A DNA stretch of 64,000 bases, taken from assembly GCA_964017185.1 (NCBI GenBank), contig OZ024874.1, positions 52,914,856 to 52,978,855 on the forward strand. The letters are read 5' to 3'. The position numbers were made by a program, and so were the translations under genes. Source of the DNA: Rugalucina vietnamica (taxonomy: Eukaryota > Mollusca > Bivalvia > Lucinida > Lucinidae). The first letter of the stretch is position 1, and every line of letters begins with the position of its first letter. Of the stretch, positions 13,775 through 58,079 are shown in pieces. A model generated the notes under the pieces. That model was given only the letters and a program-made list of their open reading frames with translations, did not search any database and was not told the origin of the DNA.

Positions 13775-13862
13775 ATGCAGAGCATGGCTGATCGGAATAC
13801 ACGGACAGTTGTTGTCACCGTGGTGGCTGTGATTGCTTTGATTGGAAACGTCAAATCCCAGG
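13775..13862 (+). CDS. G2 exon 1: signal peptide
   Basis: ATG at 13775 (or the in-frame ATG at 13784) opens a basic start followed by a hydrophobic core VVVTVVAVIALIG and a likely cleavage site near VKSQ. Ends in phase 1 before GTACGT, which matches the phase-1 acceptors downstream. Upstream in-frame codons lack an ATG near the start. No clear TATA box seen. Confidence 0.82.
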
Positions 13863-16800
13863 GTACGTACCCGTTAGGTTTTAACAGTTTGGTTGGCATT
13901 AAATCTATCTACATGCTATGCTACCTACATCGTTGTTCCCAACAAAATCAAACAACCAGTTTAATGCAGCTTTTCTGAATAGCATAACAATTCGATAAAT
14001 ATTCCCAATTCTATTTCCAATTACACAAACGATGAAAGGTGATAGAACTTCTTTGTACTTTAAACGTACCTCCGTCGCCATTGCATCATATCAGTAATTT
14101 CAATACTTATGAATATCCTTTTTTATTGTTTAGCGTATGCCATGTTTTCAAATGTTGTCAAGTTGGGTCGCGTTGAGGGAAAACCTGATGGTTTTGATGT
14201 GTATATTGAAGTGCCTGACTGGCGTTTGTAGTTGTTTGCGTTTCACCAGCCTGAGGTCGGAATCTATGCGCTCCTGGCAATATGTTTTCCCATGACGAAG
14301 ATCACATTTTGATTTGCTTTATGTACATGTATATTGTTTTATGTATCTTGTTTGTACATGTTTAGAGGGCCTCGGGGAAGATTGGCTATGCCAACCGAGC
14401 TACCCTCTTTAAATAAAGAAATTATTTATATACTTACTTACTTACTTGCATATTATCTTCAAAAAATTGATAATGAAACGTTCAGAGAATGGACTGAAAG
14501 ACTTTTAAAAAACAACATCATGGCATGTTCATGGCGTGGCGTGAGTGTCGTTTCACTTACCATGTTTACGGGTAGCACGGCTCCGGTTGACATCCCAACC
14601 ATGCTCTGAAACTATGTACATAGAAAATCGAAAGAATATTTTATTTGAGTCGCCGCATAAGAAAACCAACAACATGTATACGCAAAAGCAAAGACGCAGA
14701 TCAGCTGTGCAGTAACTGCACAGCTGATCAGCGTCTTTGTTTTCGCTACACAAATAGTACAAATCCGCCTTCTTCTTAAGCCCGTCTCACACAGAACACA
14801 CGGTTTACACGGTTGGTCACCCGTGTAAACCGTACATACAACCGAATAAACCGTGGCCTTATCCGACTTGCACTCGGGCCATTCGAGTGTATCCGTGTAA
14901 GCCGTGTATGATTTTTAAAACTTTTAAAAAACTAGCACGGGTGCGATGTCCGTGTATAATCGTATAAGCGATCGTACAAGACCGTGAGAGACCGTGTGAG
15001 CCCGTACGAGACCGTATATACAACCGTACATGAAGCACAAAGCACGAGTAAGCTCAACCGTGTCAAAATCGTATATAAATCGTATGGAATCGACCGTATA
15101 TAAACCCTGTAAACGTCGTGTTTAATCGTACTAGGCCGTAACAGATCGAACTAGACCGTACTTGGAACCGTAAAACAATCGTATGAAAATCGTTGGCAAA
15201 TCGTGTTCAAACCGTGACAAACATTGCTTGATCGAGTATACCCGTGCTTTGATCGTACTCACTCTTGCTACATTCGAGTCTAAATCGTACCTCAGGCACG
15301 GTTGGAGCTCAATACTCGTACCACTCAATCCGTGTGTAACCGAGTAAACCGTATTGGAACCGTGTGCCCAACCGTGTTCTGTGTGAGACGGCCTTTACGT
15401 CCGAAATCTCTACCTTCTAGCTTTTTCTGTGCCAGTACAGGCCGGATTGTGTCAGACCTGGTTGGCAGCCCAAATCATTAGCTTTCTAATGCAGCGGCTC
15501 ATGTTTTTCCTTCCCGCTACAGTTATCACTGACGCGTGTACTGATGTTGGGGAATGTGGTGGGATCACTAATGTGGAGTGTCGAGATGACGGCCCTGGCC
15601 TACAATGTCTCTGTTTGACCGGATACAGTGCTACAGGTGCCACGAACTGTGATCCAGTAGGTATGTACCTTGTGCGTGAGAAACAAAACAATATGGGTTC
15701 CGACCAGGTCCGACACAAACCGGCCTGTACAGTCACAGAAGACGGTGAGAGGCTGGAAATTTTGGACTTAGAAAGTAGAGGAATTGTACTATCCGTGTAG
15801 CGAAAACAAAGGCGCTGATCAGCTTCGCAGTTACTGCGAAGCTGATCTGCACCTTTATGTTCGCCTATGCAGATTTTTGGTTCTCCCATGCGGCGGCGTA
15901 TGTAACTTGTGCTCTGATGATGCCTCTAATCTGAACATTTATATTTTCATTGCAATCGCCAAAAGCGTCGTTACTTTCTGTTCTTCATTTTCTCGATGAC
16001 AACATTGAGAAATCGCGTGACCGTAGTCCACGCCCATGGGCGGAACGACGTCATAGTCAGCCAGTAAACAGCGAGGTTTAAAAAGGTTCGGAAGCGTCAT
16101 GTCAGTTAATTAATCGAATAAGTGAGTGCTGCGTGCTGCATGTGGGTTAGTTTAATTTACGTAAATCAATCATTGTCAATTCAGATTGCGGGGGTTTGAC
16201 AGACCCTGCGGACGGGTCAATAACATTTACCGATGGCTCCCTTTACAACTCGGTGGCAAGTTTCAATTGTGACCCAGGATTTCGCCTTACTGGTTCTGCC
16301 ATTCGACTATGTCAAGCCGACGGATTCTGGAGTGGTACCGCAGATCAAGCTTGTGAAGCAATCAGTGAGTAAGAATGATGAGTTTGGGTTAGCAGAGGTC
16401 ATGCAGAGGTCGGACCTCCATGACACGATATATATAGTGTCAAGTGACCTGCAGCATACTTTAATGCGCACATTGCTTATGTTAGGATCAAAAATTGTAT
16501 TTGTTTATTTTGTTTATCTCCAAAGATAGCATGAAAAATAAATAAAGTAATTTCATGATGAAATTTTAAATATTGCACTTTCGTTCTATTTCCATTTTTG
16601 CTTTCATTTTCTTTTACTTCATTGTAAGTTATAAACATTGGTTGTTTCAATTAATCCGTGGTCTCTTGAACTTCCAAGAAATTAATCTAACATATAAGCC
16701 TGGTGTACTTTTAGTGGGGCAAAGGTAAATAGTATAGCCCCAGATATGACGCATCAGAACGCGGCGTCCCATCTGGGGCTATTCTGTTTGCTTAGAGGAA

Positions 16801-19800
16801 TTTCATAAAAAATGAATCAAAAATTCAAAATCACTCCTGGTGCCTCTTAAAAGGACTCACGCAAATGATAATGATGGGCAAGTCCATTTGTCTTATATGG
16901 GTTAATGACTAATTCTCACTGCTCTGAATTCCAGTCATTGGAATCACGTGTACTGACGTTAACGACTGCACTGGTATCAGTAACGTCGAATGTCGTGATG
17001 ACGGCGGTGGTAATCAATGTCTCTGTCAGAACGGGTACAGCGCTTCTGACGATACAACCTGTGACATCGTTGGTGAGTTGTGAGAACTGGTATTCGCACT
17101 CGCTAAAATATTTCTTTATTCGCACTCGCTAAAATATTTCTTTAGTAATTTACTGATTTTATCAATGTTGATTGAAACGGAACACAGCAACAAGTAGGTA
17201 GGTTGAGTCTCTCTGTACCGCTATCATGATCGACGATCAAGTACAGCCATCGCACTTGCTTAAAGTCGTTTTTTTTTTCTGAAATTACCTTTGGCGTTTG
17301 TTTGTTTGTGTTGAGGCTTAACGTCCCAGTCAACAATTTTTCAGTCATGTCGGGACGGAGCCAACGCTTCCTGGGTTTAACCAGTACTGTAGGGAGTAGA
17401 TGTGCCTTGCTCAAGGACACAACACGGTGACGCTTGTGGGGTTCGAACCCAGGACCTCTCGATTCGGAGTCCGTACTCTACCACTACGCCACCGCGCTCC
17501 CTTTACCTTTGGCGTTGTCATCGAGATAGAAACACATTATACTTCAAAGATAATGTGAAGAGAACGAGCATCTATTGAAAGTTCAATATACTCTTATGTG
17601 AAATCAGCACAATTGTCTTTAAATCTCGTTGGTCTACAATGTCTCTGTCTTTAAATCTCGTTGGTCTACAATGTCTCTGTTTGACCGGCTATAGTGCTAC
17701 AGACACCACGACATGTGACCCAGTAGGTATGTAACTTGTGCTCTGATAGCTTTGCGAGAATTCGTGATGCTTTCATCTGAATATTTCTATTTTCCTTGCA
17801 ATCGCCTTGGATGAAAGTGTCTTTCTTTGGTGTTCTTCATTTCGCGATGACAACATTGAGAAATCGCGTGACCGTAGTCCATGCCCATGGGCGGAGCGAC
17901 GTCAATGTCACAATGTCAGCCAGTCGGGCTTCACAGACATTAAAACAAAAACACAAGATTTTTCCTAATCCAATAGCAGCTAAAAATCTGAATTTTAATC
18001 CTTAATTGTTCGTCGAGATAAGTATTCAGGTTGACTGTAGAACCTCATCGTACAATCTGTGAGAAGCAGAAACATTGTTATGGATAAATGTTATGTTGTT
18101 AAATGTTATGGATATCGCAATTGTAATGTTAGCCAAGGTATTACTTACCTGAGAATGTCGAAACAGTCAAGTGTTTCTGTAGAAACCGAGCGTCAACCTG
18201 TGAGCCTGTAGGGAAGCGATTTGTACTGTGATGCTGCTTTTGCATCTCTGACGCGGATTCAGGATTAAAGTGTTTCTTTCGATAGCAGGTTACAAGCAGT
18301 GAGGTTTAATTAATCGAATCACTGAGTGCTGTGCGCTACACGTGGGTTAGTTTTAGTAAATCCTTTATTGTCAATTCAGATTGCGGGGGGTTGACAGACC
18401 CTCCTGACGGGTCAATAACATTCAGCGATGGCTCCCTTTACAACTCGGTGGCAACTTTCAATTGTGACCCAGGATTTCGCCTTACTGGTTCTGCCATTCG
18501 ACTATGTCAAGCCGACGGATTCTGGAGTGGTACCGCAGATCAAGCTTGTGAAGCAATCAGTGAGTTTGAATGATGAGTTTGGGTTAGTTTTTTAGAATGT
18601 CACGTCCCACAAGCAACAGCGGTCATGCAGAGGCCGGACCTCCATGACACGATATATATGTATATAATTTGAGTGTGACCGGCGGCATACAGTAATGCGC
18701 TTCTTGCTAATTGTTTTGGATCAAAAATTGTATTTGTTTATTTTGTTTATCCGAGTCCATAGATAGCACGTACAAATGAATAAACTAAAAGCATGATGAG
18801 ATTTTGTTAATTGCATTTTTTTTTGTTATATACTCATCAAAAGAAGTTATTCACCATTTAGTTTTTTTCATATTTTTAGGTGACATTTTGACTAACAAAT
18901 TTCAAACCTAGCTTTTTGACTTTGCACAGTCTGAAAGAGTTTGATAATGTGTGTGATGAGACCAAAAAACGTTGCAGAAACGATTTTAAGAAAAACTGAA
19001 AATTTCCTTTTTCTGTAAATACTGAAAATTGGAAAATCGAAAAAAATCCACCAAAAATGCCACCGTGTTACGAACACATTTTTGCTTCCAAATTTACACA
19101 CAAGAGCTCCAAAGCAAATGATTTAGCCAAAAAACAAATTAAAAAATCTCAAAATTTGGGTAAAATTGCATTTTTGACAAACTTGCAATTTTTGAGAAAA
19201 AGTCATAAATATTGGAGTAAATGAGTAAAATCTAAATTCATTACAATCTTTGATAACTATAAGATGTTTTGACATCAAAATCCACCGCATACTTTCTTTC
19301 TGTTAAAGGCGATCTCATGTCAAAGATATTGCATGAGTATGTTTTTGATATGCAGCTTTTTAAAAAAATCGGAATTTGGATGGGTTGAAAACCAGTACTT
19401 CTCGTTAAACATCAAGGGGTGTTGCATGTTGTGCTTGTTGGAAAAACAACCAATTTTATTGGAGAGATGAAGATGAGTTACTAAGCTTGATGTGAGAATT
19501 TAAACAAAATCTCAAAAATCATTATTTTTGGTCTAAATTAGCGTTTTTTTGTCCTAAAAATTCAATTTTTTTTTATACTCTAAATGATTGATTTCAGTAT
19601 CTCGAGTGAGGATGTGAAACAAATTCAGGTTTGGAAGCCCAGAAATAAAGATGTTGGCTTTTTGCTGCATCCCAAATTTTGGTGTTTTCAAAAACATGCA
19701 TTTTTGCACATTTTAACTTAATCTTTTCAAGACAACATTGGTGCTTTGTTATTCACGAAGTCCAGCCCTTAAGATGGTATTAAGTTTTAAAAGTTTATTT

Positions 19801-22800
19801 GAAAAAGATCTATACTAAACATCATTTTAAAATAAAAAAAATAATTGGTGCAAAACTTCTTTTGTTCTTTTTGTTTTACTTTCTTGTGCGTTATAGACGT
19901 TGTTTTGTCGATTTCAGTACAATCATTGGCTCTTGAAATTCAAAGAAAGTAGTATAATGACTAAACATAATCTTTTATTTCTGCCTTTTGTGAATTCCAG
20001 TCATTGGAAGCACATGTACTGACGTCAACGACTGCACAGCTGCTGGTATCAGTAACGTCGAATGTCGTGATGACGGCGGTGGTAATCAATGTCTCTGTCA
20101 GAACGGGTACAGCGCTTCTGACGATACAACCTGTGATATAGTTGGTAAGTTGTGAGAACTGATGGCCCCGGCTTCGCGCTCGTAAAATAATGGTCATAGT
20201 GGCGGCAATCGGAACAGATACGGCGCGTGTTTTACAACACAACCTGTGACGTCGTTGTTTGAAACCTCTATGATGATGAAAAAAAATGTTTGTGGCAGTT
20301 TTCGCTCGCTAATACTAGGAAAAGTAAAGCGTAAAGAACACATGATCCTATTTGTAGTTTTATGTGTTCCTATGACCTATGTAGGTGTATAATTCCATAT
20401 AGTGGTTCCTGGTCATGTTTTACTTTTACCTTTTCCAGTCAATAATTTTTCAATTATGTCGGTACGAATCCATCCCTTTGTTGGACATTAATCAGTAATA
20501 AGAAATAGCTAATTACATGTACATGTAAAGTAACAACACGTCGGTATGGTTCGATTCCCCCGATCTGGGATCTGACGCCCTGTCAGTAGACCACCACTTT
20601 ATTCCAGACTGTGGAGATTTGACAGCCCCTACGGACGGATCAGTTTCATTTTCCAGTGGCACAACGTGGAACTCAGTGGCTACATTCAACTGTGACACGG
20701 GTCACACTCGGAGCGGTTCATCTATTCGGATGTGTGGTCCAGATGGCACTTGGAGTGGTGCTAATCCGACATGTCCAATAGACGGTTAGTCTCGATATAG
20801 AATATTTCTATTTATTATATGGCAAGTGATGAAATATAGAGAAATATGTATTAAAATATAACCAATATTTGAAAAAGTTATATTTTCACATGTGAAAATA
20901 TAAAAAAGTTATATTTTCACATGTGAAAATATAAGATTTGGGAATACGCAAATTACGATTCCACCGTTTCATTTCTAATTTATACATAACTAAATTTTAT
21001 AATCTATGCTATTGTTGACGCAATGAACGTTCACACACAATAGCGACGTAATGACGTCATTTAAGATTTTGACGTCATATGCTTTAGCGCGCAACGTTAC
21101 AATGACTACATGCAATATAATAAAAAGAAAATTCAAGTTTTTGTCGTGAATATGACTTTTATTTCATCTCGTGAAGTGAAAAATTATTTCATTCGTGCCT
21201 TCGGCACTCATGAAATATAAAAAATTTTCACTTCACTCAATGAAATAAAACTCATATTCACTCCAAAAACTTGAATATCCTCTATGTAGCCTCTTGCTGG
21301 TGGGTAAGCTGTCATGTAGGATCTCACATGTGGAAGTTAGCTATCACACTTTCCAAAAGTAAAAGAAAAGTACGCATACATATGCATCAAAATTGACAAA
21401 CAGACTTAGATCTACAATATGAAACACGCAGGTACATAAAATGTACTTTACGAAACCGTATTTGCGAATACCTATTTGAGGTGATAATAGTTAGTCTCAT
21501 TGGATAAAAACGAGATATGATAATAGATGAAATTATTTCAAATTATATAATAAAAACGACTACACTCATCACATGTTTCTCGAAAACATTTTCATCACCC
21601 TTATCATCATTTAGACTGTGGTGTTCTGAACAACCCTACCAGCGGCGCTGTGGATACATCAGCAGGAACCACATACGGTCAGACAGCAACTTACACATGT
21701 GACACTGGCTATAATATGATTGGTAACTCCCAGGTCCAGTGTCAGGCCGGAGGAACATGGGAAGCTGCCCCAACCTGCCAGATAGTGAGTAAGTGTAAAC
21801 CATTTTATTCTCGACAAACAAAACAAAATGTGAATTTTTACTGCTTTAGTATAATAACATACTATAATGACATACCTTTACATTTGTGATTACAGCAACT
21901 GGCGTTGTTTCGTGTGGCGACCGTAAAATGTTTCCCCGTACACCAGCCATATTCCAAATTATATATATTCTTTTGGTCCTATATGACCCTTACCTATAGT
22001 GTAAATGTTGTGCTGCTTCCAAAGGTCATACTTTTATGTCTTTCGAAAACATAATTAAGAAGAACTTATATCGTGTAACCTTTATTTGTTTTGAACATAA
22101 AAAATAAACATCATCTTCTGTCAAATTCCCATAGAAAAATTTCTGAGCCCTCATATTAAAGGTAAAACAGACCATATACAATGTACATTTAATTAAGTCC
22201 TTTAACACCGGTATGAACATTTTGAAATGCACCTTGTGATAATATGTACCACATTCTTAACGATAAAATATTTATTTTAAGCTGTTTTTGGCTATTGATG
22301 TCTTAGATTTAGACTCCTCTGACTAGAATTCTCTAAAATTACTGAATTAGTGTGTTTCCTAGTATCTGATAATGTCTTTACGCAGATATTCTGCAACTTT
22401 TTAAATCTAAATGAAATATTTTCATGGAACAACTGAGCATTTAGCTTGACGCAAAATGAGCTGCAAAAATTTTGAAATGGGTTGACAAACAAAAAAGTTC
22501 TGGTCAAAAACATTTTTAAAGAAATTTTCTGTACAAAATCTCATGAAAGAAATGTAGATATTTTCCCGCAAAAATTTAAAATTCTTTGTATTTCACTATG
22601 ATTGCCCAAAATCTTTACAAATGACACAAATGACTTACCTGAGACAAAATGTTCATGATAAATCAAAACTTTTCGAAAAGTACCCATTTTCATGATCATA
22701 TTCTAAATTCATTCTGGCCATTTAAACTTTATATGTTGACCGATTTTCAAATATTTTGCAGGTCTTATTAGGACAAACTAAGATCAAGATTTTGACATAA

Positions 22801-25800
22801 AAATAATTCCTATCGCCATCCACACAAAACTTTTCTGTGAAAAACTATTATCAGAGGCAAGTTTTAAACTTTAGTTTCTGACTTTCTTTTCAGCTTGTTA
22901 AAGTGTCACTAAAAAGGTTCATTGCCTAAAACTGCGCACTGCAGCCCACCTTATTTCTTGTGAATGATTTACTGCTTCCAAAGGACATGCAATTATATTT
23001 TACTTCTTACCTTGATAGATGTATGAACTGTTCTTACCTCCAACGTATGTTTTCTTTGTGATTTGTCATATGTACAATTTCATCTTTGGATTCAGCCTGC
23101 CCAGTGATAAACAACCCGGCTGCCGGTACTGTCTCGCTGTCAGACGGAACCAACTACCAGTCAGTGGCTACATTCAGCTGTAACACGGGGTATAACCTAA
23201 ATGGAGGCACAACAAGAACGTGTCAGGACAGTGGCGATTGGAGTGGGACTGCAGACCCAACCTGTGAGATAGTCGGTAAGTAATGCATAAGTTATGACGG
23301 TTTAAGGAAACCTATGCAATAATTTGATAATGATCTTATCCATATATTCGTCTCCGCTTTCCCGTTACTTCCCCGACTACTGGTTCAAAGATTCTCTGCA
23401 AAATGCCAGTATACAACATAACCACGTTTTATGATTTGTAAACATTTAACAAGAACTCTGATAATCATAATTTTGGCTAGGAACTATATTATCTAAACAT
23501 CTAGCTAAGCAGCTCCTCAATACCCCGATGTTATGATGTATCTTAATTTTGTCAGCGTTTGATCTACATACAGGGTGATCAGGAATATCTGATATACCAT
23601 TTTAAGCTTACATAATTTTGTTCCACAAACACATAACATAATAAACCTTAAATCACAATGGGCTGTGATAATTCAAATTTTGTTTGGTACGTAATAATAA
23701 GTAGTTCAAGTAATGGCATTTCGAATAATAGGGATCAAAAAATTTGATAGTTTTTGCATAATTCGTTTTTTACGTCAAATTAATTTTATTACGATGTCGC
23801 GTTCAGTCCGCGTGTGAATGTTTGCTACTACTGATGCACGAATGTGTGGCTTTATTTTCAAAACATTTTTGATTAGAGCTTTTCAGCTTTCAAAAAATAT
23901 TTGATTAAGGTGAATATGCATTTTCATTTTATTCTCCTCACAAGAAAAGGCGAGCTATCAAAACAAGCTTGACGCCATTGTAATGCAATATGGACGTCAT
24001 AAAAGGCTTATATGTAAATTTTATGAAATTGTTTGAACAGTTCTATTTTACATGTTAGTGGTGTATATATCTAATGTTTTATACTGAACTAAATTTGAAT
24101 CTTTGTAGATTATTTTGATATACGTGGGTTGGGATTTAAGTTCGTAGACTTTCTTTGTAAAAGATCAGATGTCTGTCACACAGACATTAAAATGTTATAA
24201 TCTGAAAATACATTCTTTTACCTATCATATAAGGTATAAAGCATTGTTCTACTCAAAATGGTATTCGCACAACAATGAATTAAACACAATGACCTTTCAT
24301 CACCCGGGGCACGTCGTGGAAATTCTGACGTCAAAACTACGTCAAATTTCAATAAGTGTCAGCATTAAAACGCTTTGTCTGTAACCGAACAACAAATCAT
24401 GCCTTTACTTATTTGCAAAGTTTCCTTCAGGGATTTTGGAATTATTATTGTGGAAATACTGCGATCATTAGATATTATAGTTCTTATACATAACTTTCTA
24501 TGCGTTTCATGCATATCAGTGTTTTAAATCAAGAATGTTGGCCGTAGCTGTAGACGAGAGCATTTCTCATCGTTAAAATTCAAGTACCTCCATTCTGAAA
24601 TCCCACATACCATTTTAAAATACCACTGCACGATCTGTTTCACAACTGTACAACACATCCCTATCATTTTGAATATTTCTGTGGGTATTTTGGCTAATCA
24701 AACATAAAATTTGATCAATGCTGTTGTTTTGACGTTGCCTGTTAACGCCATTCTTCTTTTCCAAGCAGGGCGACTGGCAATATATGAGCCGCATCATGAG
24801 AAAACAGGACTTTTTCTTATGCGAAAACAAAGACGCAGATCAGCTGTGCAGTAACTGCACAGCTGATCTGCGTCTTTGTTTTTGCTACTCGGATAGTACA
24901 ATTCCTCTTTAACTTAAAGCCAAAATCCCAAGCCTCTAGCCTGCTTCTGTGACTGTACAGGCCGGTTTATGTCAGACCTGGTCGGAAACCCCGAAGACCG
25001 GTTTTCTCGCGTCGCGGCTCATATTATCTCCAATAACAAATCAAGTCGTCGACATTTAAACTGAGATAACACTATGATACTGCAATGCCTTAAACTGATT
25101 TAGCTCAAGTTTTGGTTTGCAATATGATAATTATGGGTGTGTTCTTCAACGCCACATAACTTCAGAATTGTTAAAAATTCGACGTGTCCCGGGTAGCGAA
25201 ACGTAGGTTGCTATGGAGACCATTTTATGAGCACTGCGCAAAGTGTCTTGAAAAATATTGTTAACACGAAACAAGGAGACGTTGTTTATTTATAATAATG
25301 CATCAAATATCGGATAAATGCTGTTATATTCAATCAGTAGCCAAAGTCTACGAACTTAAATCCCAACCCTCGTAGATTTGAATAATTTATGTGCTGCTGA
25401 AACAAAATTATTAAAGGTCGTAATGGTATCACATATTCTGGATCACCCTGAAGATGCGCTGATTATAGAATGAGTTTAAGATGTTTAAGCCTGGCGCTTC
25501 ATTAATGGGTTACAGATGAAAAAATAGCGTCTAATTAATGTGTTTTAAAATGAAAGTATTCGCATCCAGTTGACGGGGAAGGAACATACCATTTTTCATA
25601 AATGGGTAATAAGTGATATTTTCCAGATTGTGGTGACCCTGGTATTGCTCAGTCCTCCGGCTTCACTCCGACAGATACGACGTACAGCCAACAGACTTTT
25701 GTTTCGTGTAACACAGGGTACTCCGGTGGAGGTCTAACGACATGCCAAGCATCTGGTGCTTGGGATCCCGTGCTTACCTGTGATCCTAAGGGTAGGTATA

Positions 25801-28800
25801 CTACTGCATAGAAGACACCGAACATCAGAACCCCATTTTCGTGATCCCTAGGGATATTCGCTTTCAGTGTACGACCAGAAACACAGAGCACTGACCTACG
25901 CGTTAAGACTACTTATTAGGATCGCAATGCTGCTGATATACGTACTTTCGAACTGTTCTTTTTTTTAAAACATCGATAATTGAAAAGATATATAAGTAGC
26001 CGAAACCGTGGTATGGTCCATCCCTTTTCTCATTAATATGCTCACTACTCTTAAAGGATGTCAGTTTTATTTCTGTTCAGTGTTAATTTGGTAATTTCAA
26101 GTACTTTGACAGTGTTAATATTTACGACGTCAGGTACATGTTATATCACTCTGCAAATAGGTCACTGTATGGGCGTTACCTCATGAATACGTTATTGGGT
26201 ATGGTCTACCTTTGACTTAGGTAAAAGCTACAGGTATACAGTTAAAAGATTCAACTCACATGTTTTCCGTTAAAAATAAGAATGAAATACGAGTTTGTCT
26301 AATTCACTGCATTGGACAAAATACAGGTAGCTGATTTCTAACGGTAAATATGTGACAGCGGTCTAGGCTGACTGAGTACGAGTTTTCAATAATCTCCCTA
26401 CTTGAACACATGGACTAGCCGACCACGCCCAGATATGAATATTAAAGTTGCCGCCTATACAGTAACCTATTTGCCCAATTACACCATTATAAATTATTGA
26501 GATGTAGTGGTTTTCTTTTCGTATCATAAATCTATCCAGATTGTGGTTCTCTGGCGCCCCCTACCGACGGTACGGTTAATGCCCCTGTTACCACGTATCA
26601 GTCGGAGGCCACTTTCTCATGCAACACTGGCTACACGCTCCAGGGGTCCCCCACTCTCACCTGTCAGTCTGATGCTACATGGGATAATGCGCCGCCAACC
26701 TGTTTAATAAATGGTATGGAATTAATTATTACTTTATTTAAAAACGTCACATACAAGGCCGAGAGACATTGATGATTACCTCTAGTGGCAATCTTAGGAA
26801 TCTACTGCATATACAGTCCCGCTTGCGTAAATGTACTCATTGATTACGCGTAACGTACGCGCGTATTACGCACGTAATACGCACCTTATTTATACGCGTA
26901 TGTTTCAATAGCCAATCATAATTCAATTCCTCTTACACGTATGATGCGCATAACGTGCGTACATTACGCGTAATGATTTTAACCAATAAGCTGGCAATTC
27001 ATAAAGCCAGTCATTACGAATATTTGAGTATATACGCGTATTTTTGTAACCAATCGGGAGTGAAACAGTCTTACGCAAAGAATACGCGTAACATACGCGT
27101 AATGAATCAGCCAATAATGTTGAATTTGTATGGTTAAAGCAAAAAACCGGATTTTGCTTTAGACTAAAACAATAGATCTATCTAATCTTTGCTCAAACTG
27201 AGTCCTGCGGTATAAATTAATTGCCTCGAACGAATAACATGTCCGTGATCGCCCCCATGAGAAATATGTTCAGTGCATCTGTTCATCCCTGGATCGGTTC
27301 CTGATCTGACACCGAGTTTCTGTAGTGTTCGCTTGCTTTTGGATGCAGTTGAGATAATTAAAAAAAAAAAAAGATATACAAGAAGGAGAAAGAAACGTGG
27401 AAGAAAAACAAGTACAAACCTTACACCGTATAGTGGTGCTTCTACAAAATAGAGGAGGAACTCTACGACTATTAAAGATTAATGTCTGACTTATCTGTCC
27501 ACTTGTTTTCCCGAGACGCTTCAAATCTAAAATAATATTCCTCACTTCGATGTTCATTTTTGTTCCTTTCGCCATCTTGGTTACAAAGAAATTTCGATTT
27601 ATTTTGAACGAAATCTTAACTCATTCGGAAACTAGTTATAATCTGATATTAGGGTCAGAGACACATAAAAGGATTTCACAATATACTTGAATATATTCAC
27701 GTCATTAATTTTCATCAATAAAATCCATTATACTTGCGCATTCTTTACTTTCGATGTTATAATAAAATCAACCGTTAGGTACTTAAGCTTTTGTATCCCT
27801 TATGATACGCGTAAATACGCGTAAACGTATTGACAATCTGACTGGCCGATCATTTATACGCGCAATGTCTGAAGCTTACGCGTATCGACGCTTTAATCAC
27901 TGCTTATGAATATTTATTAGATACGTTAAATGCGCGTATGTTACGCGTGAATGCGCGTAAATAGCATTACGTGCGTAACACGCGCGTTATACGCGTATGA
28001 TACGCGTAAATGGAGTACATTTACGCGAGCGGGAGTGTACATGCAGGAATTACATGCGATTTTATTTTAGATGTTTTCTCCTCTTAAAAGAATTGACGTT
28101 GCTTTTGTTTGCCCATGGTTTTCATGAAATTGGTATGTATGTAGCTCAGGTTGTATAAACAATTAAGTTTTATACAACTTTAGATAGAATTTCACTTTTT
28201 GTCAGATTGTGGTACTTTGGCTGACCCTCCAAATGGCGTCGCCGATTATTCTGGAGGAACCACGTACAATTCTGTGGCGACATTTACCTGCAATACCGGG
28301 TACACAATGGTCGGTAGTGCCACAAGTACATGCCAGGCGAACGAACAGTGGGATAATGCAGACCCTGATTGTCAGATAAACGGTATGTACTAAAAAGACT
28401 GAAGTCTTATGCACAAAATCCATTTTTGGACCGTGATGAGGCTGGTAGTTGGTCGATCAAACCATAAAAAAAGACCAACTGGTCCGAAAATAATGCTGTG
28501 TATTGAATAGGCAAATATGTTAAAATGAATGTATATTTGTGGCTTTCCTTCTGAGCTTTATTGTAACTTTTCGATCCCAATATTCGCGTATATGACCACT
28601 GTCATTATTATTGTCGATACGAAGATAAAAGTAACTAATCGTCTTCAAAATCAAGGTTCTTGCCACCATTGCTACTGTGGCTTCACATCCCGTATTGTTT
28701 CGGGTTTGCTCTAGACACAAATGTCATTTTATAATGCAGTGCATAGGGTCCCTTAAACCTGAAAATAAACAGGAACTTGGTTTATATCTTATTGATTCAT

Positions 28801-30869
28801 TATGCAGATTGTGGAACCTTGGCCAACCCTCCAAACGGTGTTGCCGACAATTCAGGAGGAACAACCTACTTGTCTGAGGTTACTTTCACCTGTGATATGG
28901 GATATTACATGGCAGGAACGGGTACCAGTACATGTCAGGCGAACGAACAGTGGGACAATACGGACCCGCAGTGCACAATATATGGTAAATGACCAGGGCC
29001 CAGAATTACAATGCTCCTTTAACGTTAAGGTAGACCTTAGTTAAGGTGGCGAATTTCAGCATCCAAAAAGATGCATATAAAACTTACTGAAATCAAACTT
29101 ATAGGTTTTATTATGTAAATAACATTTATTCTGCACACTTGTATATTTTCGTAAATACAGTTATTGATTTAAACGGTACAATATCGTGTCAAAATTTGAC
29201 ACCTTAACTAAGGTGGGCCTTAACTTTAAGGAAGCATTGTAATTCTGGGCCCTGTAATCAATATTTGGTCAAACGAATGATAAGTCTCAAAAAGGTCATA
29301 TACCATGGTTATTATACGAAAAATAAATATAAATAATTTATGGTTATTGTTATACATTGCAAAAATTGTTGACATCTAGGTGTCTCCAAATTTAAGATGA
29401 ATGTCTATGTTCAGTGATGTTTGTGATCTTTATTTCAAATCTAATCGAATAAATGGTAAATGTGACATTGGCAGGCAACCTTATGACGTCTATATTTGTT
29501 TTATCACTGTCTTTGTTAAAGTTGGTTAATATGGTTCAAATATAATATGGTAAACGTCTATTCAAATGATAACTACAGTATCTATGGTGATAAACGCCTA
29601 CAAGTCAAGTAAATGGTACCTATGGTTGAAATATACTAAAGGACTTCGAAAACGCCTCACTTCTTTTATTGATTCTTACTTACTAGTCTATCAGAATACA
29701 GAACAAATGGGTAATTTTTTTTAAACTGAAAAGTATAGTCAGTCTGCTTAACTTCAATACCAAAAGAGAAACGTCAACGCCAGTTATAAACGTCATACAC
29801 AATGAATTCATATTGTGTCAAGCAAACCCAGAATTCAACAAAATCACATTCTGGGGACATTTTGAAAACAAATTTGTCTTTTGTCTAAAGCCTATATCTC
29901 AAATGACATGATATATAATTCGGCAAATAGGTCATTGTATGGGCGTTACCTCATGAATTCGTTATTGGGTATGGTCTACATTCGACTTAGGTAAAAGCTA
30001 AAGGTATACAGTTAAAAGATTCAACTCACATGTTTTCCGTTAGAAAATAAGAATGAAATACGAGTTTGTCTAATTCGCTGGATTGGACGAAATAAAGGTA
30101 GCTGATTTCTAACGGTATATATGTGACAGCTGTCCGGGCTGAGTTCGACTTTTCTATAATCTACCCATTCGAACAGATGGACTAGCCGACCACGCCCAGA
30201 TATGAATATTAAAGTTACCGCCCATACAGTGACCGATTTGCCCAATTATACCACATTGTTATTCTATCTATCGCCTGAGGGTTTTAATAATTTTTGCTAG
30301 AAAATTCTGAGCCTGAGTACTTTTTGGACAAGAGTTTTAAAAAGTGTCGAAAATAACTTTTTCAAACTAGTGACCTTATCTTTTTTCATTCAGTATCTAA
30401 CTAACTGCCGATTTTGAATCCGTAAAAGTCCTGATTGTTTCCACCCTAACCATGACATCGAATAGGGACAATTGTGTCGAAATATTTATTCACTGGGATT
30501 AGTTCTAACCAGATATTTTTGTCTCCTTTCACACAAATAACTAGAAAAAGTGCCTTGAGAGGCACGTATACCCCCGGCTGGTAGCCACCAACCCCACTCC
30601 CTACCCCCTCCCTAACCACCCAGCATATGTTCACCCCTGACACTGAATCTCAAATCCCCAATGAAAGACAGTATCCTTATCAAGTACATTTTAGAAATGT
30701 GCTTTAATAATAAAAGCAATTGGCCGACAAACATGGGGGAGTGCAGTTTTAGAATGACACTACTTTAAAGCAGTATACAGAGCTGACTTGTATACTCAAT
30801 CTAGGACTTAATCGCGGACATTGTGGGTCAGGTCCTCAGTCCTAGATGGAAATGATAAAAGAATGTCAT

Positions 30870-30927
<58 letters not shown>

Positions 30928-33900
30928 CGTCCCGGATCTTGACCTTTAGCCCCACCCCCAGCCTTGGTCCCTAGGGTCCAAACCCTACATGGTACCTGTG
31001 GTCTAAGTTTGAATGCTTTCTGATACATGGTTGTCAAGAAATAAACCTATGTACACATAATATTTATCTTGGTGGCTCATATTATACAGATGTGTCCTAC
31101 ATTTTGACCTCCAGCCCCACCCCTGGGCTTTGGTGCTATGAATATAAAAGTCAACCCTAAAGGGTATCCATGAACCAAATAGAAATACATTCCTTATTTG
31201 TTAAGATATTAACGTAGAGAAAGAAAAACACTGTAAATAGGACATTTCAAGGTGACCTGGATTTTGAACTCTAGCCGCACCCCTGGGCATAGACTCTGGG
31301 GTCCGAACTCACCGAAACAAAGCAAACACTATAGGATAACTAAAGTCCAAATATGAATGATTTCTGATAATTGGATTATGAGACATACACCATTAGAGAA
31401 ACTTTAACCAAAACTTTGACGCAAATTAAAGGTGACCTAGATTTTGAACTCTAGCCCCACCCCCAGGCATGGACCCTGGGGTCCGAACTCATGGAATCAA
31501 AGCAAACCCAATAGGGTACCTAAAGTCCAAATATGAATGATTTCTGATAAATGGTCCTTGAGATATACACCACTAGAGAAACTTTAACCAAAACTTTGTC
31601 GCAAATTAAAGGTGTCCTAGATTTTGATCTCTAGCCCCACCCCCGGGCAAGGACCCTGGGGTGCGAACTCATGGAAACAAAGCAAACCCTATAGGGTACC
31701 TATGGTCCAAATATGAATGGTGTCTGCATGAGATATACACCACTAGAGAAACTTTACCCAAAACTTTGACGCAAATTCTACTGAACTAACGAACGAACGA
31801 ACGAACAAACGAACTAACGAACATACGAACGGACGAATGGACAAACGGAAAAGCGAAAACTATATACCCGTCGGCATAAATGCCGGGGGTATAATTATGC
31901 TAAACTTTTGACGAAGAGTATATAATGGTATTAATATAATAGTCATGATACTGTCTATATTTCTCGAACCAATCTGGTATGTTATAGACTGCGGTACACT
32001 TGGTCCTCCTGCCAACGGCGGCGTGACGTTTCCGAGTGGGACGGAGTACGGCGGGTCCGCTGATTTCACATGTGACCCGGGGTACGATCTAAATGGCGTG
32101 CCGTCACGGACCTGTCAGGATGGTGGTAGCTGGAGTGATGCTGATCCAACCTGTGATATAAAAGGTGAGATTGGAGACTCCCAAACTGAATGTATTTCTT
32201 TATTTGTAAATGCGATCACAAGAAGTAATTGTTGCCTCTTTCAGAGTCACAGCAACTGAAGACATCAACCTTCTACACCATATTTTAACAGTATAACCTG
32301 CATAAAACTGGATTTATTCTGTTTACATTTTTCTTACTGGCTATTTGTTGTTATTTTGTTCCTAGCTATATTTTGTGGCCAAATAGTGCAATACTTGCCT
32401 ATATTTTCTCATGCAGACTGTGGGCAACTAGTAGCCCCTGACAACGGCGGCGTGACATATACGAACAACGGAGCCACCACATACCAGGAGGTTGCCACTT
32501 TCACCTGTGATCCAGGCTACGATTTGACGGGGGATACTACCCGGACTTGTGAGGCTAGCGGGAGCTGGGGAGGGGCTTCTCCAACATGCATAATTAAAGG
32601 TATGAAATTAATTGGATACGGCCGTTTTTCTTTCCATATATTAGATCTTCAAATTCAAAATCTAAAAAAAGTATGAATTTCGCCAGCAACTTTGTTAGAT
32701 GCCAGGTGCCAAATATTTCTCTATCCGTGCTACAGGGGAAAATGTGTTTCTCTCAAGTGCACATTCAAAATCAGGGCCCATAGAATGGGGCTTTTACATG
32801 CTGGCACCAATCAACCACGCTATCCTAAAATAGCGATCACGAGTTTTACTGATAAATATTAAATCTTGAAATTCCAGACTGTGGTTCGCTGACTGCTCCT
32901 ACTGATGGCACCGTGGACACGACGTCAGGAACAACCTTCGGGGAAACGGCCACCTATACTTGTAATACTGGATACAGTCTTATTGGGGATAACTCCAGGC
33001 TGTGTCAGGCTGATGGAACCTGGGCAGGGGCTCCACCGGCTTGCCAAATACTGGGTAAATAGTATTTGGTCACATTAAAATGAGTTTCATTGATTCTCAA
33101 TTATTCACAACCTTATTGATGTTTAAAAATGAAAATTATAAAAATATATAGATAAATAAATGAATAGATAAATGTTGTCATATTAAAAAACACATATTAA
33201 GCTAAAATCGTTTGAGTTTTATGATTCAACTTCATGAAAGCCAAAAAAAAAAAAATACGAAACATTTATTTGCAATAGCATAAGTTGCATTCACGAACAG
33301 TTGACTGTCACTACAGCATACTACTTTGTCAACCCATTTTGTGTGTGTCCGAGTCTGAAAAAATAACATATTCTGAATATGATATTATTTCATAAACACC
33401 TTAGTGACTTTATATTCAGACTGTATGACCCTGACCAGCCCTACTAACGGTCAGGTATCAGTTGGTGCCACCACCTACAACTCTGTGGCTACCTATACTT
33501 GTGACAGTGGCTACGATATTGTTGGGGTTGCTAGCCGGACGTGCCAGCCTGATGGACTCTGGAGCGGGGAACCACCGACATGTCAACTCAAAGGTACCAT
33601 TTGCTAAATGCAACATAAACCAAAACAGAATATTTTGAAGCTAATAGTCCGTTACATTTTGAAATATAGCGTTTCTGAAGGGCCGTTGACCAGTATAGCA
33701 CCGTATATCATGGAACTTCCCCCGCATCATGGTAGTATCATTCTGGGTATTTTTAAGTCAGGTCAGTTTAACTGCTACTGTAACATGTAATCAGTACTAC
33801 CTGTTGTCATGCGGTGCAGATGGGGCTCGTTAGCCTTGGAAGGCAACTCATCTAGGAGTTAAGCTAGTTCTCTACACAAAAATCTAGCTGGGCAGGGGGA

Positions 33901-39900: not shown

Positions 39901-42900
39901 AGAATGTTTGTCTACTGGAGAATGGAGTTTGTCTGCACCCCTTTGTGTTGTCGGTGGGTATACATTTCTTTTTTCTTATCATTATCAAGTCGAGATGGCT
40001 ATATGTAAATAATTTTAAATAAAAATTGTGCTAAAACGGCAATCGTATTTTTTGTCGAGGATATACTTTGTGGGCGCAAAGCTGTATTTTTCGTACAGCC
40101 AGTGTCAAATGCATGTGCAACTCAGATATCTTAACTTTATCTTAAGTAGTGTAACCGTTAAGTAATCAATGTTTGCAGGTTGCCCCGACCCTATGCCCCC
40201 CGTCCACGGAACAGCCGACGTCAGTGCGGGTCGGGCTGCTGGGGACACAGTGACATACGGTTGTGATGCGGGATATCGGCTTGTCGGAGAACTAACACGG
40301 GAATGTCGGGATGATACCGTCTGGAGCGGGAACGATCCAGTTTGCCATATTGGTAAGGCTTTATATGGAACACCAGATTAGACTGCCTGTACAATGTACA
40401 TTTACTTCGGGTACCGAGGAAATAACGAAAACGAATGAAAAGTTCTTGCCTTATCTTAATCGATTGTCTGTGCAATTCAACTGTGTTACTCCCTTTACTG
40501 ACACTTTTTCAACTGGCGCCGTTGTCGTTTGATTACTGTTGATGGTGGTAGCGACTACATCGGTATTTAGCCTGACAGAACAACATGTCAGTTAAGTCCC
40601 GGTCCCACTGCGCTTAAGATTGCTTAAGATCGGTATATACGATTGTCTTAATATTAATTTAGGGGTCATTTCTTTGACCCCGATATGCAAATTAAGAAAG
40701 TAGAGACACGTTCGAAAACTGTTTTACAAATTTTGCATACGCAGTCTTATCAATAACCTTATGAATAGACAGTCGAGGTTGTCCATAATACACTAGTTTA
40801 ATGGGAATGGATGCATGAAGGAATTACTGATTTACAAGCTGAAAATCGAGTAGGAAATTAAGAAGTTATTGAAATTTTAGTTTTTGACTGGCAAAGTCAA
40901 ACAAATTCAACTAAACTGTAACACAAGAACCATTATCAAATTCTATTATTTGAGCCTGTGCATGAGAAAACCAACAATTTGCATAGGCGAAAACAAAGCC
41001 GCAGATCAGCTTCGCGGTAACCGCGAAGCTGATCAGCGCCTTTGTTTTCGCTACACGGATAGAACAATCCCTCTCCTACTTAAATACAAAATTTCAAGCC
41101 TCTAACCATCTTCTGTGACTGAACAGGCCAGTTTTTGTCGGACCTGTTCGGAACCCAAATTGTTGGTTTTCTCATGCACAGGCTCGTAATTATTCCCAAC
41201 TCATTTCAGAATGTCCGATACTATCCTCAATAGAGGACGGCAAAGTTGACCTATCCGGTGGTTACTGGGAGGGCTCCATTGCTACCTACATCTGTGACAA
41301 GGACTATGCCTTGGTCGGGACCTCTACTAGAACTTGCCAGAGTACGGGGAAATGGAACGGTGTGGTGCCTACATGCATATTTGGTAGGTATTCGTGATAA
41401 CGATCACTCGAGATGTTTGATTCTCGATTTTCGTCGCCGATATTTGGGCAATTTCCCCCGCCACCCCGTTGGCCGTTATAGGAATGCTAATACTCAGTGT
41501 TATTTTGGACTTCCTTATAATTTGCATCTAAATCTATAAGCTAAATGTCCATTTATATTGTCTGTTTGTCGTTGATATTCCCGGCTGCCTTAGACTGCTG
41601 ATTTTGATAGTGATCGTGGACATCCTGATTATTGACTTCTGTATCTATTGGCCCTATTTGAATATGAAATCTTCTGTATTTTAGGTATTTTTCAGCAATA
41701 TTTCTCGCTGTCCCACCCGCCGTGATAGGACTGCCATTTTTAATTTGTGTGGTCACCATTTGATAAATGGCTTTTGTGTCAACCTGCCCCGATTGATCGT
41801 AAAACTCCGCGTTTTCTGTATTTTTCAGCAATATTCCCTGCAGCCCTACTGGCCGTTATAGGATTGCTGATATTCATTGTGATTGTCGACATCCTGATAA
41901 TTGGCTTCTGTATCTACCTGAGATACAAAAAGAACAAAAAGAAGAAGAACGTAAGTGGTCATTTGCCTATTATGTAAAATATACTATCATTATATTAGAT
42001 AAACGTTATAGAGAGCAATCTTCATCATAAATAGTTTAGGAGATCAAGAGTAAGAATTATAGTAATGTTGAAATAAATAAAGATTATAGATACAGTACCT
42101 CTAATTTATGTGTCTTTGAGATTAATGCGGGGAACTTTTTACACAATTTCTACGTTTGAATTCATTTTTTTTTTTTTGTTTTTATTGGGTCCATCTTAAT
42201 TTCGTCGACAATTTGGTCAATGTTTTACATTTCAATATCCAATTCTTGCTCTCGTTCGTCAGGTTATTTTAAGATTTTATGTCAAAACATTCCTGTTTCG
42301 TAGCCTGTTCCATTTCCCGAATACATACGTATGTTCAGGTGGGACACAAGATAAGGTATTATATGCATATCTGTATGTTTATAGCGCCAACAAGAGCAAG
42401 ACTTTGATGACATAGGAGAGCAGCATGATGAAGAGAAATATCCAATGACAGACTATGACGACGAAAAACCCCTTGAGAAAATGGAAAACGGAATCCCACC
42501 TTCATCCCTAATAACCTCCGGTCCAATGAGAGCCTCTTTCAAGAAACAGAGAAACTCTAAAGTCGCTCCCGAAGACGCCAATAAGAAAATGGCACAGATG
42601 CAACCCAAGAAACCCCCGGTCCCGAAGTTGGATAAGTCAGGGGTAAATATCAGCAAAGGTGGTGTCCCAAAACCGAAGCCACTACCGAAGGGCGCTTACA
42701 AGAACACGAAACCATTTGGACCGAAAGTGTATGGACCCGAGCCGATAAAGTTTAAGAATGAGACGATCCCCTTTGTGCCGCTGGAGACATCTGAACCCCC
42801 ACCTAGCACTCTCCAACAGCAGATTGCTGATGAACTGAAAGAGGAAAAGGTCGCGGACGTTGATAAACTTCTGAAAGAGGGAGGCTACACTTCTGAAACT

Positions 42901-50468: not shown

Positions 50469-51190
50469 TAAAACGTAGATCAGGGCAGACTGAATGTTAT
50501 GTCTTGTTTTACTAATGCTTATTCTATTATATCCGAATAACGACGGAGAGTTATTTGTACGCTTGTATATAGCATTTGTTTTTTTTCCCTCGCTTTGGAA
50601 AGTGTAAATGCAAAGTTTTCTTTATCATTATTTCCAACATCATTTTCGTACTTTTTTCTCCCAGGAAAAAAGCTACCTGAACTATTTTAACATGATATGG
50701 CAGACATCGAGTTTAGTTTCACACCGTGTCAAAATGAATTAGGTGTGTGGTGTTATTAAGCAACGACCCAACACCAAATGTTTGTAACTATTTTGGATCG
50801 AAACGGGTTGGTTTTGGACATTCGCATGCCCCATGACATCTTTGCGCATACCTTCAATAACTCCTTAAACATATTTATTCCAAGATAAAGTGATAGGCTT
50901 ATTTAAAAATCAATTTATTGTTCTTGATCCAATTAATCAAATCATCTTTTTCATGCGTTGAATCGACCGTATTCTTTACTAAATTTAAAGCTACACACCT
51001 TTGACACTCTTTAACATGTTTAACAGAAGAACAATAGATGTAGACAACACTACATGGTGTAAAAATTGCGTATGACCTTACCAAAGCAATTTAAAAATCA
51101 ACATGCTAATTTTTATGACAAAATAATGCTAGTCCAAAATGGTTTTAATTTATCTTTCGAATTAATGAAAACCAAACTTTCGTTTGTATT

Positions 51191-51272
51191 ATGATCTCAC
51201 CAAAGTTTTGGAACTCATTATTACATTGTCTTTCAATTATTCTGGTTTTAAGTACGAATGTTCTAGCTCAAG
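51191..51272 (+). CDS. G3 exon 1: signal peptide
   Basis: ATG at 51191; MISPKFWNSLLH then hydrophobic CLSIILVLS and a likely cleavage after NVLA. Ends in phase 1 before GTAAGC. The same layout as exon 1 of G2. Confidence 0.85.
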
Positions 51273-56843: not shown

Positions 56844-56878
<35 letters not shown>

Positions 56879-58079
56879 TTTGGGCTGAATAACATGAATA
56901 ACAAAAAAAAATATTTTTCTTTCATATGCAAAGTTATTTTATTTTCGTTTATCTATATCGTTCTTTACTTATCTTCTCTGTTCATTTTTATATTTGTTCT
57001 TAAATGTGCAGAACAAAGGAACACTGTGACGAAATACTGTTAATGTCGTTTTAACGAACAGATACTTCAGTCATTAATGCACCATTCTGATCATCCAAAC
57101 TATAAACCATCACTCATTCTTTATCCAGCATTTCAAACTTTTAATAGGTTGTGTGACTGATGTATAACCAGGGTGTTCCTTATCTTGTTCGAAACCCTGG
57201 TTAATTGCAGACAATTATATATTACAGATTGTGGCAGCCCAGGCGACCCTAATGGAAATCTTGTCGGTGTCAGTACCTACGGCGGATCACCCTCTATGGA
57301 ATGTAATACAGGCTTTGTCGGTGGCGGACTGATAACGTGTTTACCGTCAGGAGAATGGGATAAATCGTCGGCGACTACTTGCGTTCTCGCAGGTATATGT
57401 CGCTTAGAATCTTTTTCTTGGCGAATTTAAGTCAATAGTTAGGTTAGCTGGTCATTGGATGTGCACCTAGCCTTTGCAAATCAATTGTACATTTATTATT
57501 TATTGACCCACACCATATGATGTTATATAAACAGAGTTGGAGAGATCAAGAAATTCATCGTCATAAAGGACGCAGTTAAGAAATAAACGACGTCATGTAT
57601 GACGTCGTTTATTTCTTATCATTTACAAGCAGCAATATTTGCTTCATACCTTCACGACTGAATTGTTCTAGTATAGTTAAGTGTGTGAACTTGGTGTGAG
57701 AGCAGTTTCAGTAGAGTGTGGAATTCGAAAAATATAGCCAACAGACAGGGTGCCCTAAAACAATTTTGTCGCTAACAATCATACTTTCGAATAAACAGTC
57801 TCAATTTCAAATACCGTATTCCAGATTCAAGACTCAAAGCAAATCTCGTGATTTGTAGAGAAATCCACTTAATTTAGTAAATTCACTGCATACTCTTCAT
57901 TACAGATTGTGGGTCCCTATCAGCCCCTTTATATGGAAATGTCGCTGTGACGACAACGACATATGGTAGTTCAGCGACCTTTACTTGTGAATCCCTGTAT
58001 GACATGAGTGGGAATAATGTACTGACATGTAATGCTGACGGGGTGTGGTCTTCAGCTCCGCCCACGTGTATAGATATTG
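51191..58079 (+). CDS. G3: secreted or membrane CCP-repeat protein gene (3' end not in window)
   Basis: Exons: 51191-51272, 51546-51704, 54040-54204, 54581-54751, 55242-55412, 55848-56018, 56636-56800, 57228-57392, 57906-58079. The joined frame is open: a 27-residue signal peptide followed by eight CCP domains of 53-58 residues, all in phase 1-1 exons. The last exon has a good donor (GTATGT), so at least one more exon is expected, but none is recognisable in 58080-64000. Most domains share the short YGG-x-A..GY-x-GGG type with G1. Tandem with G2 in the same direction; the three genes look like one expanded family. A role in recognition is inferred only. Confidence 0.85.
51546..51704 (+). CDS. 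G3 exon 2: CCP domain
   Basis: Phase 1-1, 53 codons. DCGAPGDVQYG start, core IVCWYGFTGS (Trp-Tyr in place of Asn-Thr), second Trp in GVWDPLPTC. The most divergent G3 domain. Confidence 0.9.
51930..53696. repeat. Tandem array of GACCTTTGACC repeat units
   Basis: About 1.77 kb of repeating modules: TTTGACCTTTGACCTCGATG, CCTCNAGCTAATATCCGGGG, CCAAGTTTGGTGAAGATCGG, GGACCTGGGAGAAGTAGGGG and, in alternate units, AATCAGGGATCAACCTGTAT with ATGCAAATCGGACC. Units come in a long (about 310 bp) and a short (about 120-190 bp) form. On the minus strand open frames occur by repeat effect; not genes. It fills most of G3 intron 2 and ends with ACAAACAAACA. Confidence 0.9.
53815..53972 (-). repeat. Decayed SINE-like sequence
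   Basis: AAACGTCCCACCAACAAT.., then GGGATCGAACTCATAATCAC and ATGGTAAAGTCGCTCTGAAC, echoes the inverted head and body of the SINE at 17299-17502. Highly diverged. Confidence 0.4.
54040..54204 (+). CDS. G3 exon 3: CCP domain
   Basis: Phase 1-1, 55 codons. DCGSPAIPSG start, core VTCNTGYQGGG, Trp in GDWYSPPFPQC, and an N-D-T sequon (AYNDTT). Confidence 0.92.
54581..54751 (+). CDS. G3 exon 4: CCP domain
   Basis: Phase 1-1, 57 codons. Starts ECWDPDIPNG (Trp replaces Gly), core VECDPGFEVIG, Trp in GNWDTLPTC. Closer to the long CCP type of G2. Confidence 0.92.
54987..55222 (+). mobile_element. Hairpin MITE family A, copy A11
   Basis: Plus copy with GCATAAGAAAACCAAC to CTCACGCACAGGCTCA. The palindrome arm has one mismatch (GCGCTAACCGC). 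It ends 19 nt before G3 exon 5. Confidence 0.9.
55242..55412 (+). CDS. G3 exon 5: CCP domain
   Basis: Phase 1-1, 57 codons. DCGTPPILHG start, VVCDTGYLGYG core, Trp in GLWDTAALPIC. Its acceptor lies 19 nt behind MITE A11. Confidence 0.92.
55848..56018 (+). CDS. G3 exon 6: CCP domain
   Basis: Phase 1-1, 57 codons. DCGTPFVYHG start, core IGCEPGYEFGG, Trp in GLWDELTMPTC, N-T-T sequon. Twin of exon 5 (same length and HGxLT layout). Confidence 0.92.
56152..56335. repeat. Short foldback repeat (AGAGGGGGTTCG)
   Basis: GTGGTGTATTTAGAGGGGGT..CGAACCCCCTCTT..AACCCCCTGCC..TCCTTGATCCGCCCCTGATCAC: several GGGGGTTC / GAACCCCC inverted pairs within 180 bp. Non-coding MITE-like repeat in G3 intron 6. Confidence 0.65.
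56636..56800 (+). CDS. G3 exon 7: CCP domain
   Basis: Phase 1-1, 55 codons. DCGTSVDPNG start, ITCNTGYTGGG core, Trp in AVWDMSAATAC. Twin of exon 8. A 31-nt poly(A) run follows at 56846-56876. Confidence 0.93.
57228..57392 (+). CDS. G3 exon 8: CCP domain
   Basis: Phase 1-1, 55 codons. DCGSPGDPNG start, MECNTGFVGGG core, Trp in GEWDKSSATTC. Same length and layout as exon 7. Confidence 0.93.
57577..57618. repeat. Perfect 42-bp palindrome with GACGTC arms
   Basis: TAAGAAATAAACGACGTCAT, two bases, then its exact reverse complement. It contains two ACGTCAT/ATGACGT (CRE-like) sites in intron 8 of G3. It may be a foldback remnant or a regulatory site; nothing here decides. Confidence 0.92.
57906..58079 (+). 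CDS. G3 exon 9: CCP domain
   Basis: Phase 1-1, 58 codons. DCGSLSAPLYG start, core FTCESLYDMSG (Leu in place of Gly before Tyr), Trp in GVWSSAPPTC. It is of the long G2 type, unlike the preceding G3 domains. A MITE starts 29 nt after the exon. Confidence 0.92.

Follow-up and report, generated by a model that had tools for sequence, protein, structure and literature searches.

The stretch of DNA analysed here (64,000 nt, referred to as the window) holds neighbouring genes for long cell-surface proteins built from many CCP (sushi) domains. Judging from their sequences, these genes probably constitute a small tandem family of single-pass receptors, which diversified by duplication and yields one or a few main isoforms per gene. 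Their layout is real but ordinary, while their mosaic history is moderately interesting: neighbours share much of the membrane-side half and differ in their outer halves.

CCP exons were located with a profile that combined 25 of the window's CCP stretches and identified 26 on the plus strand (18 at 16187-41376 and eight at 51548-58069) and five on the minus strand (4709-1). From left to right, the locus comprises gene D (minus strand), gene A in the middle, gene B on the right and gene C (plus strand) further right; the gene models rest on genomic sequence alone, and the numbering of the window is continued into the flanks, with values below 1 on the left and above 64000 on the right. A preliminary description had listed three genes, G1, G2 and G3, with 5, 22 and 8 internal extracellular exons. 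These counts are borne out, provided that G1 is the minus-strand gene, i.e. gene D, with G2 corresponding to gene A and G3 to gene B. G1 had been placed within 13775-58079, however, and its actual site is 4709-1; moreover, G1 and G3 are only parts of genes that run beyond the window. A model in which G1 and G2 form a single gene was also considered and is ruled out by the exon counts, G1 being the minus-strand gene.

Gene A is complete and spans 13775-43215, with a signal peptide, 22 internal exons (18 CCP and four EGF/EB-like), a transmembrane (TM) exon and a tail. Its introns are of the GT-AG type throughout, and its exons, when joined, can be read as one uninterrupted frame of 1592 residues. 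The features of gene A are as follows:

13775..13862, plus strand: exon 1, start codon and signal peptide, phase 1 at its end
15523..15660, plus strand: exon 2, EGF/EB-like, phase 1-1, without Pfam match
16185..16364, plus strand: CCP 1, phase 1-1, near-copy of CCP 2
16935..17072, plus strand: EGF/EB-like module, phase 1-1, near-copy of 20001-20144, sub-threshold Pfam matches
18380..18559, plus strand: CCP 2, phase 1-1
20001..20144, plus strand: EGF/EB-like module by cysteine pattern, phase 1-1
20608..20784, plus strand: CCP 3, phase 1-1
21615..21788, plus strand: CCP 4, phase 1-1, 83% identity with a gene D CCP
23096..23275, plus strand: CCP 5, phase 1-1, 91% identity with a gene D CCP
25627..25791, plus strand: CCP 6, phase 1-1
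26540..26713, plus strand: CCP 7, phase 1-1
28206..28382, plus strand: CCP 8, phase 1-1
28808..28984, plus strand: CCP 9, phase 1-1, 76% identity with CCP 8
31988..32164, plus strand: CCP 10, phase 1-1
32417..32599, plus strand: CCP 11, phase 1-1, reciprocal best match B15
32878..33054, plus strand: CCP 12, phase 1-1, counterpart B16
33420..33593, plus strand: CCP 13, phase 1-1
38355..38525, plus strand: CCP 14, phase 1-1, counterpart B18
38749..38922, plus strand: CCP 15, phase 1-1, counterpart B19
39290..39439, plus strand: EGF/EB-like module, phase 1-1, gene B counterpart at 72220; Pfam EB 22.0 bits, below the cut-off of 24.3
39774..39953, plus strand: CCP 16, phase 1-1, counterpart B20
40179..40352, plus strand: CCP 17, phase 1-1, tree partner B21 on a long branch (81/79), not a reciprocal best match
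41210..41383, plus strand: CCP 18, membrane-proximal, phase 1-1, counterpart B22
41440..41763, plus strand: three degenerate copies of the TM exon (~41448, ~41562, ~41696), just upstream of the intact one
41829..41950, plus strand: TM exon, phase 1-0, matched in genes B and C
42385..43215, plus strand: cytoplasmic tail exon and stop codon, homologous tails in genes B and C

Each internal exon encodes one cysteine-rich domain, as had been described, but the domains are not all CCPs: four are EGF/EB-like, a label given by their cysteine pattern. When three of these four were scanned singly against Pfam, one had no match and two had EGF/EB matches under the cut-off. The CCP assignment itself is supported by 17 stretches of Pfam Sushi (PF00084) in gene A (550.7 bits against a cut-off of 20.7, E 1.8e-169), while a Pfam HRM match (30.1 bits, residues 897-937) was set aside, as it falls inside the CCP array. 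Within the length, pyrimidine and donor thresholds applied to the plus strand at 13000-63600, no phase 1-1 exon with at least four cysteines was found beyond the 30 known ones. Of the degenerate TM-exon copies, the first two were detected by tblastn and blastn, and the third by hydrophobicity and eye alone; since this third copy (41696-41763) has an acceptor-like AG and an in-frame run to a stop codon, a tail-less form is conceivable.

Two further kinds of sequence were observed between these exons. Long LINE-like frames lie at 34722-37914, in the gene A intron between CCP 13 and CCP 14, and at 11312-13069, between genes D and A; we take their resemblance to be to a LINE endonuclease/reverse transcriptase. 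A dispersed element of ~240 bases with a palindromic core (unit 40947-41185) is present at 22 sites over 184 kb, several of them in introns of the genes described here, and might offer a substrate for unequal exchange.

The remaining genes extend into the flanks, and those of their features that begin in the window are listed below:

4709-4560, 4070-3921, 1718-1569, 921-772 and 96 to -53 (within 1..4711), minus strand: gene D CCP 1-5, phase 1-1
8090..8152, minus strand: probable signal-peptide exon of gene D, resembling that of gene C
51191..51272, plus strand: gene B exon 1, signal peptide, phase 1 at its end
51546-51704, 54040-54204, 54581-54751 and 55242-55412, plus strand: gene B CCP 1-4, phase 1-1
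55848-56018, 56636-56800, 57228-57392 and 57906-58079, plus strand: gene B CCP 5-8, phase 1-1

The fifth CCP of gene D is cut by the window edge and ends at -53; in all, this gene has nine CCPs, which run from 4709 to -8574, together with EGF-like exons at positions -1705 and -16429. A tblastn search of the flank examined did not find a TM exon, and gene D may therefore encode a secreted protein, or be a partial gene or a pseudogene. Gene B continues past the window with 14 more CCP exons (66016-73726, the end of B21 being unsure), which brings it to 22, and with an EGF-like exon at 72220, a TM exon at 74135-74257 and then a tail. Gene C has a signal peptide at 90750, at least 20 CCPs, a TM exon at C6:53070345 and a tail at C6:53072053. 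Besides those of genes C and D, a third signal-peptide exon of the same type was observed on the minus strand at L011:3079-3141, with no CCP exon found leftward of it within the flank examined.

The predicted topology of the gene A product is that of a secreted and anchored rod, with a secretion signal, a series of CCP and EGF-like modules and one TM segment, followed by a tail that is homologous in genes A, B and C; this topology suggests that the protein functions as a receptor. The tail of gene A comprises ~276 residues and matches no Pfam family. It has at least three matches in the genome (six candidates scored), namely those of genes A, B and C, all on C6 within ~116 kb. Likewise, the TM exon finds its matches in genes A, B and C and in one degenerate copy inside gene A, besides two weak ones at C6:57262959 (E 0.10, ~2 kb from another CCP match) and C9:31063788 (E 0.97). 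The three tails have in common the stretches GPxRxSF and P-x-T-(K/R)-L-E; for this comparison, tails B and C were delimited by the ends of open frames and not of proven exons. Apart from these, they contain generic motifs only (PxxP, di-leucine, YxxPhi, NPVF and a PDZ-like end). Regular expressions for ITIM, ITAM, ITSM, hemITAM and YxxM gave no match in the tails of A, B and C, which in this respect do not resemble ITIM/ITAM immune receptors.

Given that the preliminary description had attached particular weight to the symmetric phase 1 exons, we examined how regular and how special they are. The rule was defined as an acceptor AG exactly two bases before the first cysteine codon and a phase 1 GT one to four codons after the last. 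It holds for all 26 plus-strand CCP exons of the window, each with one domain, and the 22 internal exons of gene A are without exception phase 1-1 and hence frame-neutral, so that the described symmetry is confirmed. The pattern is far from chance, because just 45 of 2152 plus-strand cysteine codons (2.1%; 1000-62000, for a fixed 162-base domain) satisfy the same rule, and this background includes some real exons. With 120 kb of flank added to the window, 65 of 69 CCP matches conform, including 9/9 of the minus-strand gene D; the four failures are all in gene C, three of them profile matches that fall short of a boundary cysteine and one with a GC donor.

The status of this symmetry as a special feature, by contrast, was not upheld. 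A genome-wide survey gave 1808 CCP candidates, of which 150 were scored; these form 44 clusters on 12 contigs, nine of them with at least five matches. Among 20 control matches hand-picked from the 150, about one per cluster, ten follow the exact rule and 13 do so if the acceptor may lie up to three codons further out, with L037, which is cut on its N-terminal side, counted as a failure; the other seven are in longer frames, have introns placed differently or are ambiguous. Furthermore, class 1-1 modules are described as a general metazoan rule (PMC8001218), although the available part of that source does not name sushi domains. The features of class 1-1 modular extracellular proteins are all present here, as each exon holds a single module flanked by phase 1 introns and the signal-peptide exon ends in phase 1. 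Exon symmetry is thus a common background property, though not a universal one in this genome, and since it is common both among CCP exons elsewhere and in metazoan modules, it is by itself uninformative on alternative splicing. Among the scored clusters, the densest is C10:17309319-17353433, with 21 matches in 44 kb, and at C5:45776172-45780923 tandem CCP domains lie within one open frame of 1731 codons, as opposed to the single-domain exons of the locus studied here.

More can be learned from the relationships among the genes. Between genes A and B, there are ten reciprocal best CCP pairs, eight of which are in increasing order (permutation p 0.0011). On the membrane side these are A11-B15, A12-B16, A14-B18, A15-B19, A16-B20 and A18-B22, and the EGF-like exons pair as well. 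In a tree of the CCP domains, which are only ~55 residues long and leave 23 of 66 inner branches as open forks, A12-B16, A14-B18, A15-B19 and A16-B20 are starred pairs and A18-B22 is grouped at 94/96. The order is imperfect, in that A7-B17 and A13-B14 cross other pairs; in the tree, A11 groups with A10 and is not sister to B15, and A17-B21 is a weak pair on a long branch. A DNA comparison of A and B (E 1e-10) gave no match at any gene A CCP exon, with the matches lying mostly at dispersed repeats, which indicates that the A/B duplication is old.

The distal domains have other affinities. When compared with the other genes, A1-A5 find their best match in gene D (52-91% identity), while B1-B10 find theirs in gene C. 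Gene D in turn is a mosaic, with D1-D5 matching gene C at 82-92% identity and D6-D9 matching gene A at 61-91%, as though a C-like distal block had been joined to an A-like block. Genes C and D are collinear (6/6 reciprocal pairs, p 0.0013, the sixth being weak), which is not the case for C and B (4/7 pairs, p 0.46), A and D (p 0.96) or A and C (p 0.83). In gene A, a CCP-EGF block has also been duplicated recently (15.5-17.1 kb versus 17.6-20.2 kb, the latter including a truncated EGF copy at 17663-17725), and the two copies are 95% identical in protein for the CCPs at 16187 and 18382 and 93% identical in DNA for their EGF-like partners.

With regard to the proposal of an expanding, exon-shuffling family, these comparisons support a tandem family in which modules were gained by exon duplication, as in the CCPs at 16187 and 18382, and the best matches suggest that blocks were joined. 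They speak against free shuffling, since A and B still agree in much of their membrane-proximal order, even though synonymous sites have reached or almost reached saturation in the four A-B pairs tested. It appears likely that much of the proximal rod, the TM exon and the tail descended together, and that the distal block was replaced or duplicated gene by gene. On the level of the protein, the conserved proximal modules would form a stalk and the distal modules would bind an extracellular ligand, be it a cell-surface, matrix, microbial or complement-like partner, while the tail may recruit cytoplasmic partners via the short motifs conserved in it. It would be chiefly over evolutionary time that new specificities are gained, through duplication of genes and of exons, which phase 1-1 introns render frame-safe; each gene would produce a single main isoform or a few, and not millions of spliced variants. 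As it stands, the locus neatly illustrates how a receptor family with class 1-1 exons can expand through the duplication of modules and blocks. If its distal halves were found to vary between individuals or isoforms, it would become a candidate non-self recognition locus outside chordates.

Several other readings have to be weighed against this one. The 22 symmetric exons of gene A might be skipped combinatorially, which would allow many different recognition ectodomains to be made from a single gene. All of these exons are frame-neutral, symmetric modules are considered well suited to exon skipping (PMC8001218), and there are precedents in fester, where six of 11 exons are skipped (PMC3549757), and in a Ciona CCP protein, for which variability and splice variants are reported (PMC5465252). 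In addition, several gene A donors score low in an ad hoc matrix (0.1 at 33593, 1.1 at 16364 and 18559). Yet the same layout in ten of the 20 chosen CCP matches elsewhere (13 with slack) deprives it of evidential value by itself, and domain order is partly kept between the paralogues; we hold this reading to be distinctly unlikely. An extended version, in which a proximal stalk, TM segment and tail carry interchangeable distal CCP blocks, and block exchange acts together with skipping over 22 exons and possibly with tail-less forms, strikes us as very improbable. A complement-type receptor or regulator, which would bind C3-like fragments in the manner of vertebrate CR1/CR2, is suggested by a four-CCP stretch of gene A, whose best matches among solved structures are complement receptors 1 and 2 and factor H. 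However, the top three structures are also among the longest chains listed, so their rank may follow domain number, and we consider such a role to have a low probability. An ANATO search of the genome matched nothing, with its controls likewise remaining without match.

The genes might instead encode structural or adhesion proteins, acting in cell-matrix contacts, in neural tissue or in tissue that forms the shell, each with an invariable isoform and without a role in recognition. CCP domains are known from shell matrix proteins of molluscs (PMC8257504) and from synaptic proteins (PMC9083331), and both the partly conserved order and the pattern of selection speak for this reading. Of 16 hand-chosen pairs of paralogous exons, two have infinite dS and hence no ratio; among the other 14, dN/dS is 0.06-0.31 in 12, several of which have dS above 1. 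The two values near 1, for C1-D1 (1.19) and C3-D3 (1.03), depend on three and two synonymous changes, and the five C-D exons pooled give 0.42; as all these pairs are paralogues of one genome, they are silent on alleles. In our judgement, homologous cytoplasmic tails and distal turnover better suit a binding receptor, and a purely structural role appears unlikely. The explanation that we hold to be probable remains that of single-pass receptors in a tandem family, each gene having a single main isoform or a few.

Among known systems, gene A is nearer in kind to Ciona vCRL1 than to fester, as far as the available descriptions of these proteins go. vCRL1 is a complement-receptor-like protein with CCPs (PMC5465252, PMC8849226) and is reported to be polymorphic and to have splice variants. 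Gene A, with its CCP rod, one TM exon and a tail, and with CR1 and CR2 as its best PDB matches, resembles it in kind only. In Botryllus fester, by contrast, a single SCR exon is accompanied by three predicted TM exons (PMC3549757), as against 18 CCP exons and one intact TM exon in gene A, though fester is a membrane protein, as is the predicted gene A product. A closer parallel is offered by uncle fester, which has a 3' block in common with fester and unrelated 5' exons (PMC3549757), comparable to the shared proximal and different distal halves seen here. The tunicate precedents cited in the preliminary description thus hold for splice diversity, in fester and the Ciona CCP protein, but less so for the recognition role of vCRL1: in the available part of the source, its segregation and knock-down pointed to the blood system and not to self/nonself recognition (PMC8849226).

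Vertebrate CR1 and CR2 are likewise long CCP rods with one TM segment, and their rods are not known to contain EGF/EB-like modules. As the best PDB sequence matches of gene A, they share its general build, while the gene A rod includes such modules and its tail is without Pfam match. In the open-licence literature, we found no published description of the gene A-D receptor family. An expansion of CCP genes in a bivalve is already known from Mercenaria mercenaria, for which a species-specific orthogroup of 14 Sushi/SCR/CCP genes is reported (PMC8905726). Genes A-D resemble this case as a family of expanded CCP genes, a likeness that refers to the published description only.

Finally, two observations concern the mitochondrial contig C47. 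A ~200-codon open stretch rich in Ser, Asp and Lys lies upstream of an ND4L-like frame and COX1 and is not an obvious mitochondrial gene. COX1 has a bivalve look, which fits the mollusc origin proposed in the preliminary description and makes a bivalve the probable host. It contains nine in-frame TGA codons, needs a mitochondrial code and is read with table 5, with the ND4L-like frame on the same strand.
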